Assembly: GCF_038900055.1 (NCBI RefSeq)
Contig: NZ_JBBMQM010000001.1
Span: forward strand, 2,108,001 to 2,172,000
Length of the DNA stretch: 64,000 bases
From: Henriciella sp. AS95
GTDB taxonomy: Bacteria; Pseudomonadota; Alphaproteobacteria; Caulobacterales; Hyphomonadaceae
Reading direction: 5' to 3'
Positions 37,056 to 48,959 of the stretch are shown one piece after another. A program made the position numbers and the translations under genes. Positions within the stretch are counted from its first letter, which is position 1, and every line of letters begins with the position of its first letter. Under the pieces are notes generated by a model. The model was given only the letters and a program-made list of their open reading frames with translations. It was not told the origin of the DNA and searched no databases.

Positions 37056-38456
37056 ATGGCCGATGCGCAGTATGACTATGATCTCTTTGTAATCGGGGCT
37101 GGATCCGGCGGCGTGCGCGCTGCACGGATTGCTGCGCAGGCTGGTGCGAAAGTGGCCATCGCAGAAGAGTACCGCGTTGGGGGGACCTGCGTCATCCGCG
37201 GCTGTGTGCCGAAGAAGTTCATGGTCTACGCCAGCGACTATGGTCACAAGATCAAGGAAGCCGCGGAATATGGCTGGCAGGTTGAGTCGAATGGCTTCGA
37301 CTTTCCAAAATTCATGTCCAGCATGCACGCTGAAGTCGATCGGCTGTCCGCAATCTATCTGCGTAACCTCGCCAATGCCGGCGTTGAGGTCTTCGAAGAA
37401 CGGGCAGAACTGGATGGTCCGAACAAGGTCGTACTGAAGGAGACCGGCAAGTCATTTACCGTCGACAAGATCTTGATCGCCACGGGCGGTGAGCCGTGGA
37501 GACCCGCCAAGGAAGACCTTCCAGGCGTCGAGCATACGATCACGTCGAATGAGATTTTCCAGCTTAAAGAGCTGCCAAAGTATCTCGTGATCGCTGGCGG
37601 CGGTTACATTGCCTGCGAGTTTGCGCACGTCTTTGCTGGTCTCGGGGTCGAGACGTGTCTCGTCTATCGCGGCGACACTGTGCTCAACGGTTTTGATTAT
37701 GACGTCCGCACGTCGGTCCACGAGGGTCTCAAGGAAGCCGGCGTTCGCGTGATCACCAACCGCACCTTTGACCGCATCGATGAGGTGGAGGGCGAAAAAT
37801 GCCCGTACAAGATCACGCTCGACGATGAGACGGAGGTCATGGCCGACGTCATCATGATGGCTGTTGGCCGTCGTCCGTCCACCAATGGACTTGGCTGTGA
37901 CAAGGCTGGCGTCGAGCTTGATCAGAAAGGCGCTGTCATCGTCGATGATGCGTCGCGCACCAATGTTCCGAATATTTTCGCTGTGGGCGACGTGACGGAC
38001 CGCATCGCGCTGACGCCGGTCGCAATCCGGGAGGGGCATGCCTTCTCTGACAGCATCTTTGGCGACGATGAGTGGTCGTTCGAGCACGACAATGTCGCTT
38101 CAGCTGTGTTCGTGCAGCCGGAAGTGGGCACGGTCGGGCTGTCGGAGGCTGAAGCCCGCAAGAAATTCGGCGATGTCGATATCTACAAGACGCGTTTCAG
38201 CCCGATGAAAACGGCGCTTCTGGAATCATCGGAACGCGTGATGATCAAGCTGGTGGTGAAGCAGGATGACCAGAAAGTCGTTGGCGTTCACATCGTCAGC
38301 CCGGATGCGGGCGAAATGATCCAGATGATTGGCGTGGCGGTGAAGATGGGCGCTACAAAAGCGGACTTCGATCGCACCTGCGCGGTGCACCCCACCATTG
38401 CCGAGGAAATCGTCACGCTGCGGCAGAAATGGGTGCCGGACGTTGAACCAGGCTGA
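37056..38456 (+). CDS. gor: Glutathione reductase
   Basis: 466 residues, FAD/NAD-linked disulfide oxidoreductase. IGAGSGGVRAARIAAQ binds FAD, the redox disulfide is GGTCVIRGCVPKK, and HPTIAEEIV holds the C-terminal catalytic His. The NADP-binding loop is GGGYIACEFA. Keeps glutathione reduced; pairs with gshA at 1.4 kb. Rarely such sequences are thioredoxin- or mycothione-type, but the CVxxxC and overall pattern fit Gor. Confidence 0.95.
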   Translation: MADAQYDYDLFVIGAGSGGVRAARIAAQAGAKVAIAEEYRVGGTCVIRGCVPKKFMVYASDYGHKIKEAAEYGWQVESNGFDFPKFMSSMHAEVDRLSAIYLRNLANAGVEVFEERAELDGPNKVVLKETGKSFTVDKILIATGGEPWRPAKEDLPGVEHTITSNEIFQLKELPKYLVIAGGGYIACEFAHVFAGLGVETCLVYRGDTVLNGFDYDVRTSVHEGLKEAGVRVITNRTFDRIDEVEGEKCPYKITLDDETEVMADVIMMAVGRRPSTNGLGCDKAGVELDQKGAVIVDDASRTNVPNIFAVGDVTDRIALTPVAIREGHAFSDSIFGDDEWSFEHDNVASAVFVQPEVGTVGLSEAEARKKFGDVDIYKTRFSPMKTALLESSERVMIKLVVKQDDQKVVGVHIVSPDAGEMIQMIGVAVKMGATKADFDRTCAVHPTIAEEIVTLRQKWVPDVEPG

Positions 38457-38466
38457 TGGTGGAAGG

Positions 38467-39777
38467 CTAAGGTGCCATGACGAGCTGGTGGATTTCGCCA
38501 GCTGACGCCTTCAGGGCTTCGCGAACAGCTTTCAGCCCGCCGCCGCGACCTTTGTGAATGATGAGGCTCTTCCATGGCGCCTGGTCCGGTTCTGGCGCTT
38601 TCACTGTGAGGTGCCCGCTTTTCGGAATCGCATGCTGGAGAAGGGCTTCAGAGAGTTTGAAACCGGCGCGCTGGTCATGAGCGCCATTGCGGGCGTCGGC
38701 TTCAAACGATGACTGCTCATTCTTCGAAACGCGATTGAACAGAACCGACAGATCTGGACGAACGTCGTCGGCGATCTGTTCATTGAGAACAAGGTTGAGC
38801 AGCTTCACGCCGCGCAGCGAATACATGTCGGGATGCATCGGCGCGATCACGCGGTCACTGGCTTCTAGGGCGCATTTTGTCAGGAATGTCGCGTTCGGGT
38901 TGGTGTCGAACACGATGAGATCGTACGAACTGCGCAGATGGTCGATCATTCGCAGGAAGTTTTCCCGGATGGCTGCCAGCGCAGCTGCATCCGTGGCGAA
39001 CGCATATTTGGAAATCTCGAACTGGCCGGAGATCAGATCCAGCACGCCTCCAGGTGCGCCTTCCTCCATCAGGGAATGGGCGATGTCATCAGGATCTGGC
39101 GCAGGAAACGGCTCGATCGACAGGCTGCTCCAGGCTTCGGCTGGCGATGTCGCATCGCTGGCGTGTAGCCGGCTTCGTTCAAACAATGAGATGACCGATT
39201 TGTCCTGGATGGCGCTTTTGTCTGCGGCCTCCATGTCGAAGAAGGTCTGGGTCAGATTGTATTGTGGGTCGAGGTCAATCAGCAGGACGCGGCCGCCAAT
39301 TGTGGCCTGCCATGCCCCGAACACCTGTGACGTGATGGTTGTCTTACCGACACCGCCTTTGAGGTTCATCACGGACAGGACAGGGCACTTGCGGCGATAG
39401 CGGCGTCGCACGTCGCTCGTCAGTTTTTCGAGACCGCCTTCATCCATGAGGCCATAGCTCAGACTGTTGGCCAGCTCTTTCTTGAAGACGCCGGACAAGC
39501 GGGCATTATCGGTTCGGAAAGGGAAAATGGTGGTGCCACGGGCAATGGCTCGCTCGATCTGCCCCTGGGCCTCTCGGGAGCGAACGCTGCTCGCGGACAC
39601 CAGAACGACCATCGCGAAGGCCTTGTCGATCGCCTCTATGATCGTGGCCCGGCTTTCCTCAGTGTCGGCGCCGGGGGCGTCATACCAGACAGGAATGCCG
39701 GCCCGGCGCAGCGCTTCATGCACCTGCAAGAGGTTATCGACATCCTTGGGGCCGTGAACAATGAAGGCGTGCGACAT
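38467..39777 (-). CDS. TIR-ParA fusion protein
   Basis: 436 residues. Residues 1-125 look like a TIR_2 domain (HAFIVHGPKDVDNLLQVHEALRRAG...VWYD and the later FPFRTDNARLSGVFKKELANSL). Residues 132-430 are a ParA/MinD-type P-loop ATPase with the deviant Walker A KGGVGKTT (140-147), switch DLDPQYNLTQ (168-177) and Walker B IVFDTNPN. In the usual TIR pattern SxxVxREVERA, the Glu that acts as NADase catalyst falls at Gln73 (GQIERA), so the activity may be lost; this is an alignment from memory. No ParB, no parS and no obvious effector next to it. The start has a poor ribosome site. Confidence 0.85.
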   Translation of the reverse strand: MSHAFIVHGPKDVDNLLQVHEALRRAGIPVWYDAPGADTEESRATIIEAIDKAFAMVVLVSASSVRSREAQGQIERAIARGTTIFPFRTDNARLSGVFKKELANSLSYGLMDEGGLEKLTSDVRRRYRRKCPVLSVMNLKGGVGKTTITSQVFGAWQATIGGRVLLIDLDPQYNLTQTFFDMEAADKSAIQDKSVISLFERSRLHASDATSPAEAWSSLSIEPFPAPDPDDIAHSLMEEGAPGGVLDLISGQFEISKYAFATDAAALAAIRENFLRMIDHLRSSYDLIVFDTNPNATFLTKCALEASDRVIAPMHPDMYSLRGVKLLNLVLNEQIADDVRPDLSVLFNRVSKNEQSSFEADARNGAHDQRAGFKLSEALLQHAIPKSGHLTVKAPEPDQAPWKSLIIHKGRGGGLKAVREALKASAGEIHQLVMAP

Positions 39778-39913
39778 GGGAGGTGTGGCTTTCTTTTACC
39801 CCGATGGGTAGGGCAATGGGGGTGATTCCGCCACACAAACTGCCCATGAAATGTGGTAAAACTTGTGCGACCGCTGCCATTATGATTAAGACGCGCGCCT
39901 GAGGAGTAGAGAC

Positions 39914-41293
39914 ATGACCTGGACACCGAACAGCTGGAGAGCCAAGCCTGCCAAGCATATTCCGGAAGATTATCCGGATAGCGCGGCGCTGTCTGATGTG
40001 GAAGCACGCCTGAAAGAGTTTCCGCCGCTGGTGTTTGCAGGCGAAGTACGCAAACTCAAGCAACAGCTCGCTTCTGTCTCTGCCGGTGAAGCCTTTCTGC
40101 TGCAGGGCGGCGATTGCGCCGAGAGCTTCAAGGAATTCAGCGCGGACAATATTCGCGACACGCTGCGTGTCATGCTGCAGATGGCGGTCGTCCTGACGTT
40201 TGCCGCGTCAAAGCCTGTCGTGAAGGTTGGCCGTCTGGCCGGACAATTCGGCAAGCCCCGTTCGTCGCCTGTCGAGACGGTCGATGGCGTGACGCTGCCA
40301 TCCTATCGCGGCGACAATATCAACGGGATGGAGTTCACCGAGGAAGCGCGGTTGCCGGACCCTGAGCGGCTGATCAGGAGCTACTCACAGTCCGCATCGA
40401 CGCTGAACCTTGTGCGGGCTTTCTCGCAGGGCGGCTATGCTGACCTTGCGAATGTGCACCAGTGGATGCTGGGCTTTGTTGACCGCTCACCGCAGGGCGC
40501 TCGGTATGAAGCGCTCGCGGACCGTATCTCCGACGCTTTGTCCTTCATGAACGCGTGCGGCGTGAACTCCAAGACCGTGCCGCAAATGGCGCAGGTCGAT
40601 GTGTATACGTCGCATGAGGCCTTGCTGCTGGGCTTTGAGGAAGCGATGACGCGTGTCGATTCTACGTCTGGCGACTGGTACGATACCTCGGCGCACATGC
40701 TGTGGATCGGCCACCGTACGCGCCAAGTCGACCATGCGCATGTCGAGTTCTGCAAGGGCATCCGCAACCCGCTGGGCATCAAGTGCGGGCCGGGCCTGGA
40801 GACCGACGAGCTTCTGCGTTTGATCGAGACGCTGAACCCGAAGGACGAAGCCGGCCGTATTACGCTGATCACCCGCTTTGGATCAGAAGGCGTGAAGGAA
40901 GGTCTTCCGCCGCTGGTACGCGCTGTGAAGAAGAGTGGGCGGAATGTCGTCTGGTCCTGTGACCCGATGCACGGCAACACGCTGAAGACGGACAGCGGCT
41001 TCAAGACCCGTCCGGTCGACCGCATCCTGTCCGAAGTGCGCCAGTTCATTGAGGTCGTCTCGTCAGAAGGGTGCTATCCGGGCGGGGTTCATTTCGAGAT
41101 GACCGGCCAGGATGTCACCGAGTGTATTGGTGGCGCACAGGCCATCTCTGAGGCCGACCTGTCGTCTCGATACCACACTCACTGCGATCCTCGTCTGAAC
41201 GGCGAACAAGCGCTTGAGTTGGCCTTCCTGATCGCAGAGAAGCTCCAGCACATGAAAGCCGCCGTCAGCGCCGAAGCGCGCGCCGCGAGCTAA
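39914..41293 (+). CDS. 3-deoxy-7-phosphoheptulonate synthase, class II
   Basis: 459 residues. GGDCAESF holds the metal-binding Cys, and [30 protein letters not shown], seen in segments, is the class II DAHP synthase core. First step of aromatic amino acid synthesis. Preceded by GAGGAG at about seven bases. The 136-bp gap to the TIR-ParA gene holds both promoters. Confidence 0.96.
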
Positions 41294-47300: not shown

Positions 47301-48959
47301 ATGGCAGATACGCTGAAGATATTGGTCGCGCAGCTCAATCCGATTGTCGGGGACATTGACGGCAATCTCGAAAAAGCGCGTGCGACGCTGAAGGAAGGCG
47401 CTGAAAAGGGCGCTGACTTGGTCGTGTTCGCCGAGATGTTCATGCTTGGCTATCCACCGGAAGATCTGGTCCTGAAGCCAAGTGCTGTCGAGGACAGTAT
47501 GAATGCCGTCAGGCAGCTGGCCGAAGAGAGCGCGGACCTTCCCGCTTTCGTCACGGGCTCGCCGTGGGCAGAAGACGGAGCGCTGTACAATTCTGCGGTC
47601 TATTGCGCCGGCGGAGTGATCGAGGCGCGATACGACAAGCAGGAATTGCCCAATTACGGCGTCTTTGATGAGCAGCGCCTGTTCACCAAGGGGAAGTCGC
47701 CCGCCGTCATCATCAATTTGAAAGGCGTGAAAATCGGTCTCGCCATCTGCGAGGATGTCTGGTTCGACCGGGTGCCCAATGCGGCCCGGGCCGCCGGGGC
47801 CGAGATGCTGATCATCCCGAACGGATCGCCGTGGCGCCGGAGCATCCATAAGGAACGCGCCGAAGCGTTTGACCGGTGGAGCCGCCTCGGCATGCCATAT
47901 CTGTTCGTCAATCAGGTCGGCGGACAGGATGAGCTTGTCTTTGATGGCGCATCATACGCGACGAATACCACCCATGCTGAACGGTGTGGGCTGGTGGGCC
48001 AGTTTGTGTCCGGCACTGAGATGGTCGAGTTCGATCTGGAAGAGCGCAAATTTGTCCTGAAGGATGAAGGCTGCCGGCTGGATCATGACGGCTGGCACAT
48101 GGAGTATCGCGCCGCGATGCTGGCGCTCGGCGATTACGTCAACAAGAACAAGTTCCCGGGCGTCGTGCTCGGCATGTCCGGCGGGATAGACAGCGCGCTG
48201 ACGGCGGCGATTGCGGTTGATGCGCTTGGCCCGGACCGCGTCTGGTGCGTGATGCTTCCGTCGAAGTACACGTCGTCCGACAGTCTGGAAGACGCAAAGG
48301 CGTGCGCCAAAGCGCTTGGCGCGCGCTACGACATCATCAATATCCGGCCCGGCGTGGACGCGCTGGACGAGATGCTGACCGAGCAGTTTGCTGAAACGCA
48401 GAGCGATACGACCGAAGAGAATATCCAGTCGCGCCTGCGGGCTGTGACGCTGATGGCGTTGTCGAACAAGTTCGGCCACATGGTCGTGACGACCGGCAAC
48501 AAGTCAGAGATGGCTGTGGGCTACGCCACGCTCTATGGCGATATGTGCGGCGGCTACAATGCGCTGAAGGATTTTTACAAGACCGAAGTCTTCGAGCTCT
48601 CCAGGTGGCGCAACCTCAACCATCCAGACTGCGCGCTCGGTCCGAAAGGTGAGGTTATTCCCGAGCGGATCATCACAAAGCCGCCATCGGCGGAGCTGCG
48701 CGAAGACCAGAAGGATGAAGATTCGCTGCCGCCCTATGACCAGCTTGACGATATCCTGCGCGGCCTTGTCGATGAGGAAGAAGACATTCGCGATATCATG
48801 GCCCGCGGCCATGAGGAGGCGACTGTAAAGCGGATCGAGCATCTCTTGTATCTTGCCGAATACAAGCGTAGGCAGGCGCCGCCCGGCGTGAAGGTCGGCA
48901 GCAAGAATTTCGGGCGCGACCGGCGCTATCCGATTACCAACCGTTTCAGGGATGATTGA
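47301..48959 (+). CDS. nadE: Glutamine-dependent NAD+ synthetase
   Basis: 552 residues. The N-terminal nitrilase-type glutaminase has the Glu-Lys-Cys triad in FAEMFMLGY, YDKQELPNYGVFDE and AICEDVWF, and the C-terminal PP-loop synthetase has GMSGGIDSALTAAI. Makes NAD from deamido-NAD with glutamine nitrogen. Overlaps gltX by one base. Confidence 0.95.
   Translation: MADTLKILVAQLNPIVGDIDGNLEKARATLKEGAEKGADLVVFAEMFMLGYPPEDLVLKPSAVEDSMNAVRQLAEESADLPAFVTGSPWAEDGALYNSAVYCAGGVIEARYDKQELPNYGVFDEQRLFTKGKSPAVIINLKGVKIGLAICEDVWFDRVPNAARAAGAEMLIIPNGSPWRRSIHKERAEAFDRWSRLGMPYLFVNQVGGQDELVFDGASYATNTTHAERCGLVGQFVSGTEMVEFDLEERKFVLKDEGCRLDHDGWHMEYRAAMLALGDYVNKNKFPGVVLGMSGGIDSALTAAIAVDALGPDRVWCVMLPSKYTSSDSLEDAKACAKALGARYDIINIRPGVDALDEMLTEQFAETQSDTTEENIQSRLRAVTLMALSNKFGHMVVTTGNKSEMAVGYATLYGDMCGGYNALKDFYKTEVFELSRWRNLNHPDCALGPKGEVIPERIITKPPSAELREDQKDEDSLPPYDQLDDILRGLVDEEEDIRDIMARGHEEATVKRIEHLLYLAEYKRRQAPPGVKVGSKNFGRDRRYPITNRFRDD

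Follow-up and report, generated by a model that had tools for sequence, protein, structure and literature searches.

What does a TIR domain do when it is joined to a ParA-type ATPase and has lost the glutamate on which TIR catalysis usually depends? The question is raised by a gene encoding 436 amino acids in the stretch of DNA analyzed here (the window, 64,000 nucleotides of the marine bacterium Henriciella sp. AS95), which an earlier note, made from the sequence letters, had described as a TIR-ParA fusion. TIR domains are immune enzymes that cut nicotinamide adenine dinucleotide (NAD), and in animals they also serve as non-enzymatic assembly modules. The reading we favor, at a probability of about 0.45, is that the gene, single-copy and vertically inherited, encodes an orphan ATPase of the ParA/MinD type, in which a non-catalytic TIR would act as a docking or assembly module and which would position a cargo encoded at an unlinked place.

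Domain composition and constraint

The fusion was borne out on one open reading frame (ORF). Pfam TIR_2 matched residues 5-91 (E 3.4e-10, 40.9 bits against a cut-off of 28) and the ParA-type family AAA_31 matched residues 133-343 (E 3e-25), in line with the profile check that the earlier note had proposed. The ORF lies where that note had placed it, on the minus strand, which had not been named (Table 1). The predicted structure of residues 1-130 alone displayed a TIR fold with a mean predicted local distance difference test score (pLDDT) of 93.4, and TIR_2 matches (E 0.01) were found in all 40 aligned members of the fusion family. The remainder has the ParA/MinD superfamily fold and its hallmarks, KGGxGKT with the signature Lys (the KGGVGKTT P-loop at residues 140-147, intact as the note had read it) and the Walker B Asp (residues 286-291). 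Walker A was conserved in all 56 fusion-family rows printed or tallied.

Judged by its homologues, the ORF is a genuine gene and not a chance ORF, since the alignment starts at residue 1 in 118 of the best 120 homologues listed and the ratios of nonsynonymous to synonymous substitution rates (dN/dS) are low. Of eight pairwise comparisons, seven were computable for each domain; dN/dS ranged over 0.018-0.096 in the TIR and 0.025-0.194 in the ATPase, rough values as dS was often near saturation. The low ratios of the TIR argue that it is not decaying. The frame was open over its full length, with no internal stops, in every near-complete match.

The catalytic glutamate column

The earlier note had equated Gln73, in the motif GQIERA, with the usual catalytic Glu of TIR NADases. 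Codon 73 is indeed CAG, and the assignment agrees with sequence alignments. The profile of the TIR part matched BtTir (7uxr, E 4.4e-5), a TPR-TIR protein (9m0n, 0.0019) and Cat1 (9mud, 0.0037), and in each profile alignment residue 73 fell on the Glu of WxxxE (Trp plus four residues). AbTir residues 134-267 align to residues 1-128 of the model, and E208, given as the catalytic Glu in the available text of PMC10022894, is residue 75 of that span, which agrees with the same assignment. In that text the catalytic role of the Glu rests on AbTir, ThsB and others. Cat1 was set aside as proof of this role, as the available text of PMC12162218 names D33 and Y122 and no Glu; it supports only where the WxxxE Glu sits and not catalysis by Glu. 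At the place where TIR NADases carry their catalytic Glu, the fusion protein thus has Gln, from which we infer a TIR without NADase activity.

The column was followed through the family. Among the best 120 homologues (query included) it held Gln in 100, Asp in 19 and one gap, so that Glu was found in none of the 119 close homologues having a residue there. In the 55 named-genome loci plus the query, Gln occurred in 18 rows (16 assigned to Henriciella, the other two to uncultured Hyphomonadaceae), Asp in 36 (Hyphomonas and close kin), Glu in one, and one row had a gap. Whether the fusion is conserved with the same Gln, a question posed by the earlier note, has a mixed answer: the fusion is kept and the column is not Glu in any of the 119, but there is no single Gln, with Asp in Hyphomonas and Glu in one orthologue, from Ponticaulis (L149, 42% identity).

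A wider group comprises at least 28 TIR-ParA fusions (P0122-P0127 and P0144-P0165), Myxococcota records included, and at column 73 these have Glu in 25, Asp in two and Ala in one. The Glu-bearing ones, such as those of Hirschia baltica (P0122) and Myxococcales (P0127), resemble the fusion protein of the window (P0001) in domain order and in a homologous ATPase; they differ in the TIR, where identity is 20-23%. In a tree of the ATPase alone, the Ponticaulis row was the earliest to branch, with a support of 92 for the group as a whole and 88 for the rest. Because this row keeps Glu and branches first, and because 25 of the 28 distant fusions have Glu, Glu was probably the ancestral state. It was also lost in three of the 28.

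Distribution and inheritance

The fusion gene was detected in 41 of 42 Hyphomonas genomes, including all 37 of high quality, and in 19 of 29 Henriciella genomes (two of them as fragments at contig ends). Family-wide, 67 of 105 genomes matched at E 1e-22, one of these being the distant Hirschia cousin. The suggestion of a core gene of this lineage therefore fits Hyphomonas and not Henriciella, where ten genomes lack it. All 20 carrier genomes fetched with flanks had the gene at the same genomic place, although these stretches included three short contigs and some DAHP (3-deoxy-D-arabino-heptulosonate 7-phosphate) synthase ORFs hidden behind an overlapping ORF.

On a tree of nine neighbor proteins, absences fell at four places among the carriers, namely a seven-genome clade, G012 (support 0.68), G009 and G007. 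G029 also had no match, but the slot is not shown on its contig. The tree of the fusion gene broadly followed the same groups. We read this history as vertical inheritance with repeated loss, because the locus is fixed, the absences are scattered and the gene tree follows the same groups.

The absence of transfer signs claimed earlier was upheld. Relatives were encoded by none of the viral contig candidates, plasmid records gave no match spanning 80% of the fusion protein, and the phage collection, compared with P0122 and not with P0001, gave five records, none covering 80%. When genome contigs were scanned, 80 loci (of 86 relatives) were retained, of which 55 fall in the fusion family and 25 match ParA only. 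The distant-fusion profile (E 1e-20, top four candidates scored per genome) matched two of 385 sampled genomes in the class and nine of 398 in the phylum; both of the former and three of the latter belonged to the fusion family, and the other six matched by the ATPase only.

Four loci titled Candidatus Sulfopaludibacter or Acidobacteria (L132, L134, L136 and L140) displayed the typical Hyphomonas locus and are probably mislabelled or contaminated metagenome-assembled genomes. A 65% homologue in a eukaryote protein collection (P0116) is probably bacterial contamination.

Search for ParB and other partners

No ParB or effector adjoins the gene, as the earlier note had said; its flanks are the glutathione-disulfide reductase gene gor and the class II DAHP synthase gene, followed by glmU, rpiA, MATE and HU. 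A ThsA-type effector was not found among the flanking genes in the window, a distant ThsA not being sought. ParB_N matches numbered 1 to 9 per genome in 26 genomes, and counts in these gave no carrier-specific ParB. A single ParB_N gene was present in six of 16 carriers (G001, G003, G013, G027, G028 and G032), and every non-carrier had at least two. The sole ParB of G003, G028 and G032 adjoins another ParA-like match. Since this is so and no ParB is adjacent, the TIR-ParA fusion has no dedicated ParB and is an orphan in this respect.

Possible roles of the fusion protein

ATP-dependent dimerization is expected of the ParA/MinD superfamily, and hence of this protein with its intact ATPase motifs. 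In the explanation we favor, binding of ATP through KGGVGKTT would lead to dimerization and attachment to a surface, the nucleoid or another scaffold. The Glu-less TIR would be a module for protein-protein docking or self-assembly and would connect the ATPase with a cargo or a pole factor, presumably one encoded elsewhere, so that the protein may help to position something in cells of Hyphomonas, Henriciella and Ponticaulis. In the available text of PMC6650430, chromosome segregation in H. neptunium calls for unknown factors by which the cell poles are marked. If H. neptunium itself carries the gene, a ParA that occurs throughout Hyphomonas and has a docking domain would be a candidate for such a factor.

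Several observations weigh against this explanation. The positioning role is argued from the ATPase superfamily only, and no partner or cargo was found. In the full-length model, residues 171-260 (the switch/insert) had mostly pLDDT <50, therefore the ATPase may be unusual. The gene is dispensable in the ten Henriciella genomes without it, Asp in Hyphomonas might keep some catalysis, and the dN/dS values are rough, as said. The Trp of WxxxE was absent from 14 of the 28 distant fusions too (manual count), and its loss was for this reason dropped as a hallmark of the clade. Finally, mean identity between genera was 0.43 for the TIR versus 0.68 for the ATPase, and the quicker divergence of the TIR might fit a sensor engaged in conflict.

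As a ligand sensor, the TIR would bind NAD, ADP-ribose or a cyclic nucleotide uncut and switch the ParA ATPase on or off, in immunity or in signaling of NAD status. We consider this unlikely, as no signal-producing gene adjoins the fusion gene, the BB-loop stretch is variable and short, and the position of the WxxxE Trp is Glu in the query, with Trp in only two of 55 fusion-family rows. The TIR might still be an enzyme that relies on Asp, on Gln or on some other residue and perhaps does not use NAD as its substrate, but this is improbable: close homologues have Gln or Asp and never Glu, and E85Q is a catalytic-dead mutant of ThsB with activity abolished (available text of PMC10022894). TIR domains are common in defence, the Glu is kept in most distant fusions and the gene was lost several times within Henriciella, all of which would suit a one-gene anti-phage system with the Glu-bearing cousins as its active forms. 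Defence genes are usually not of such a fixed, near-universal, single-copy kind, and here one copy occupies a fixed locus over three genera. No relative was found in the viral or plasmid collections, and PADLOC-DB gave weak matches only, the best (E 1.8e-4, 18.7 bits) covering just residues 5-68; we give defence little credence.

The best relatives of the ATPase are partition ParAs, and the protein might itself serve in partition of the chromosome or a plasmid, as a ParA whose N-terminal domain is unusual. This is very improbable given the ParB evidence above, and NCBIfam partition models scored far under their cut-off (77.1 versus 180). That the protein is a remnant of a once active TIR enzyme, now in decay, would agree with the lost Glu and with the loss of the gene from several lineages, but the low dN/dS of the TIR and the full-length frames largely refute it and leave it hardly credible.

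The docking explanation can be extended. An immune-type, mostly Glu-bearing TIR-ParA family may have been domesticated once at the fixed site in Hyphomonas and Henriciella, where the NADase residue was lost and the TIR was kept structurally in a cell-organizing ATPase, a candidate pole factor of stalked budding bacteria. We put this forward tentatively, as a doubtful but possible history. If true, it would be a natural bacterial case of a TIR switching from enzyme to non-enzymatic module on an intact ParA ATPase, with a Glu-bearing orthologue available for comparison at the same locus in Ponticaulis. The role is directly testable, as a single gene is involved and nearly all genomes of a genus that includes a stalked budding model species carry it. 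The Glu-bearing fusions form a further unexplored group.

Comparison with known systems

From ParA and Soj partition ATPases (1wcv; pNOB8 ParA, 5k5z) the fusion protein differs by its N-terminal TIR, the lack of an adjacent ParB, the long and less confident insert and a C-terminal GRGGG motif of its own. From the bacterial TIR NADases AbTir (7uxu), BtTir (7uxr) and ThsB (6lhy) it differs by Gln or Asp in place of the catalytic Glu, by the missing WxxxE Trp and by being joined to ParA. VMAP conflict systems also use TIR domains and have MinD/ParA-like effector domains (available text of PMC7159879). These are predicted to be inactive and belong to multi-gene systems, whereas the fusion protein has intact ATPase motifs and is encoded by a stand-alone gene. 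No description of a TIR-ParA fusion was found in the literature searched, whose coverage mostly left out subscription papers and preprints.

Genomic context

Table 1. Coordinates of the fusion gene, its parts and its neighbors in the window.
Feature	Position	Strand	Basis
TIR-ParA fusion gene, 436 amino acids, ATG start	38467..39777	-	ORF, Pfam, homologues, dN/dS
TIR domain, residues 1-130	39388..39777	-	
ParA-type ATPase domain, residues 132-436	38470..39384	-	
Deviant Walker A KGGVGKTT, residues 140-147	39337..39360	-	sequence; near-invariant
Walker B / switch II region DLIVFDTNPNAT, residues 286-297	38887..38922	-	sequence; conserved
Codon 73 (CAG, Gln), catalytic-Glu column of TIR NADases	39559..39561	-	alignments; Gln, Asp or Glu in family
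Codon 69 (GAG, Glu), Trp position of WxxxE	39571..39573	-	alignments
Glutathione-disulfide reductase (gor), downstream neighbor	37056..38456	+	TIGR01424
Divergent intergenic region, 136 bp, fusion gene to DAHP synthase	39778..39913	.	spacing in relatives
Class II DAHP synthase, conserved head-to-head neighbor	39914..41293	+	TIGR01358; 53/53 loci
NAD+ synthase gene	47301-48959		NF010588

The placement between gor and the DAHP synthase gene, claimed earlier, was confirmed by TIGR01424 and TIGR01358. DAHP synthase was within reach at 53 of the 55 named loci and head-to-head with the fusion gene in all 53, at 136-174 bp; the remaining two loci stop at a contig edge. At ten fusion-less loci, gor stood directly before DAHP synthase (gap 106-171 bp). 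A functional link to DAHP synthase was rejected, as the order gor-DAHP-MATE also occurs at these ten loci (L076-L084 and L086). The divergent promoter was also considered as the seat of an operator or a parS-like site, and this was rejected: the conserved intergenic block near DAHP synthase persists in genomes without the fusion gene. The block is therefore probably the DAHP promoter, and no fusion-specific site is claimed. The NAD+ synthase gene is some 7.5 kb away from the fusion gene, past DAHP synthase; as fusion-less genomes have it close to DAHP synthase too, no link to the fusion is claimed.

Among the distant fusions, five (P0151-P0155) are 583-663 amino acids long and carry a C-terminal extension with no Pfam match at E 0.01. 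In Hirschia baltica (G033), the second, Glu-bearing fusion P0122 (L023 / L178:9708-11138) is overlapped at the end of its gene, by four bases, by a gene for 140 amino acids that was found in one of 61 relatives, Hirschia itself. The gor-DAHP slot of the same genome (L088:8478-9694) holds a TIR-less ParA gene (283 amino acids) and an overlapping 122-amino-acid gene on the DAHP strand. The Hirschia proteins of 140, 133 and 122 amino acids showed no relationship to the C-terminal parts of P0151-P0155, with hhalign probabilities of 0.1-0.2%. The ParA in the slot is less close to P0001 than is the TIR-ParA of Hirschia; its presence there is perhaps a coincidence or marks an insertion hot spot.
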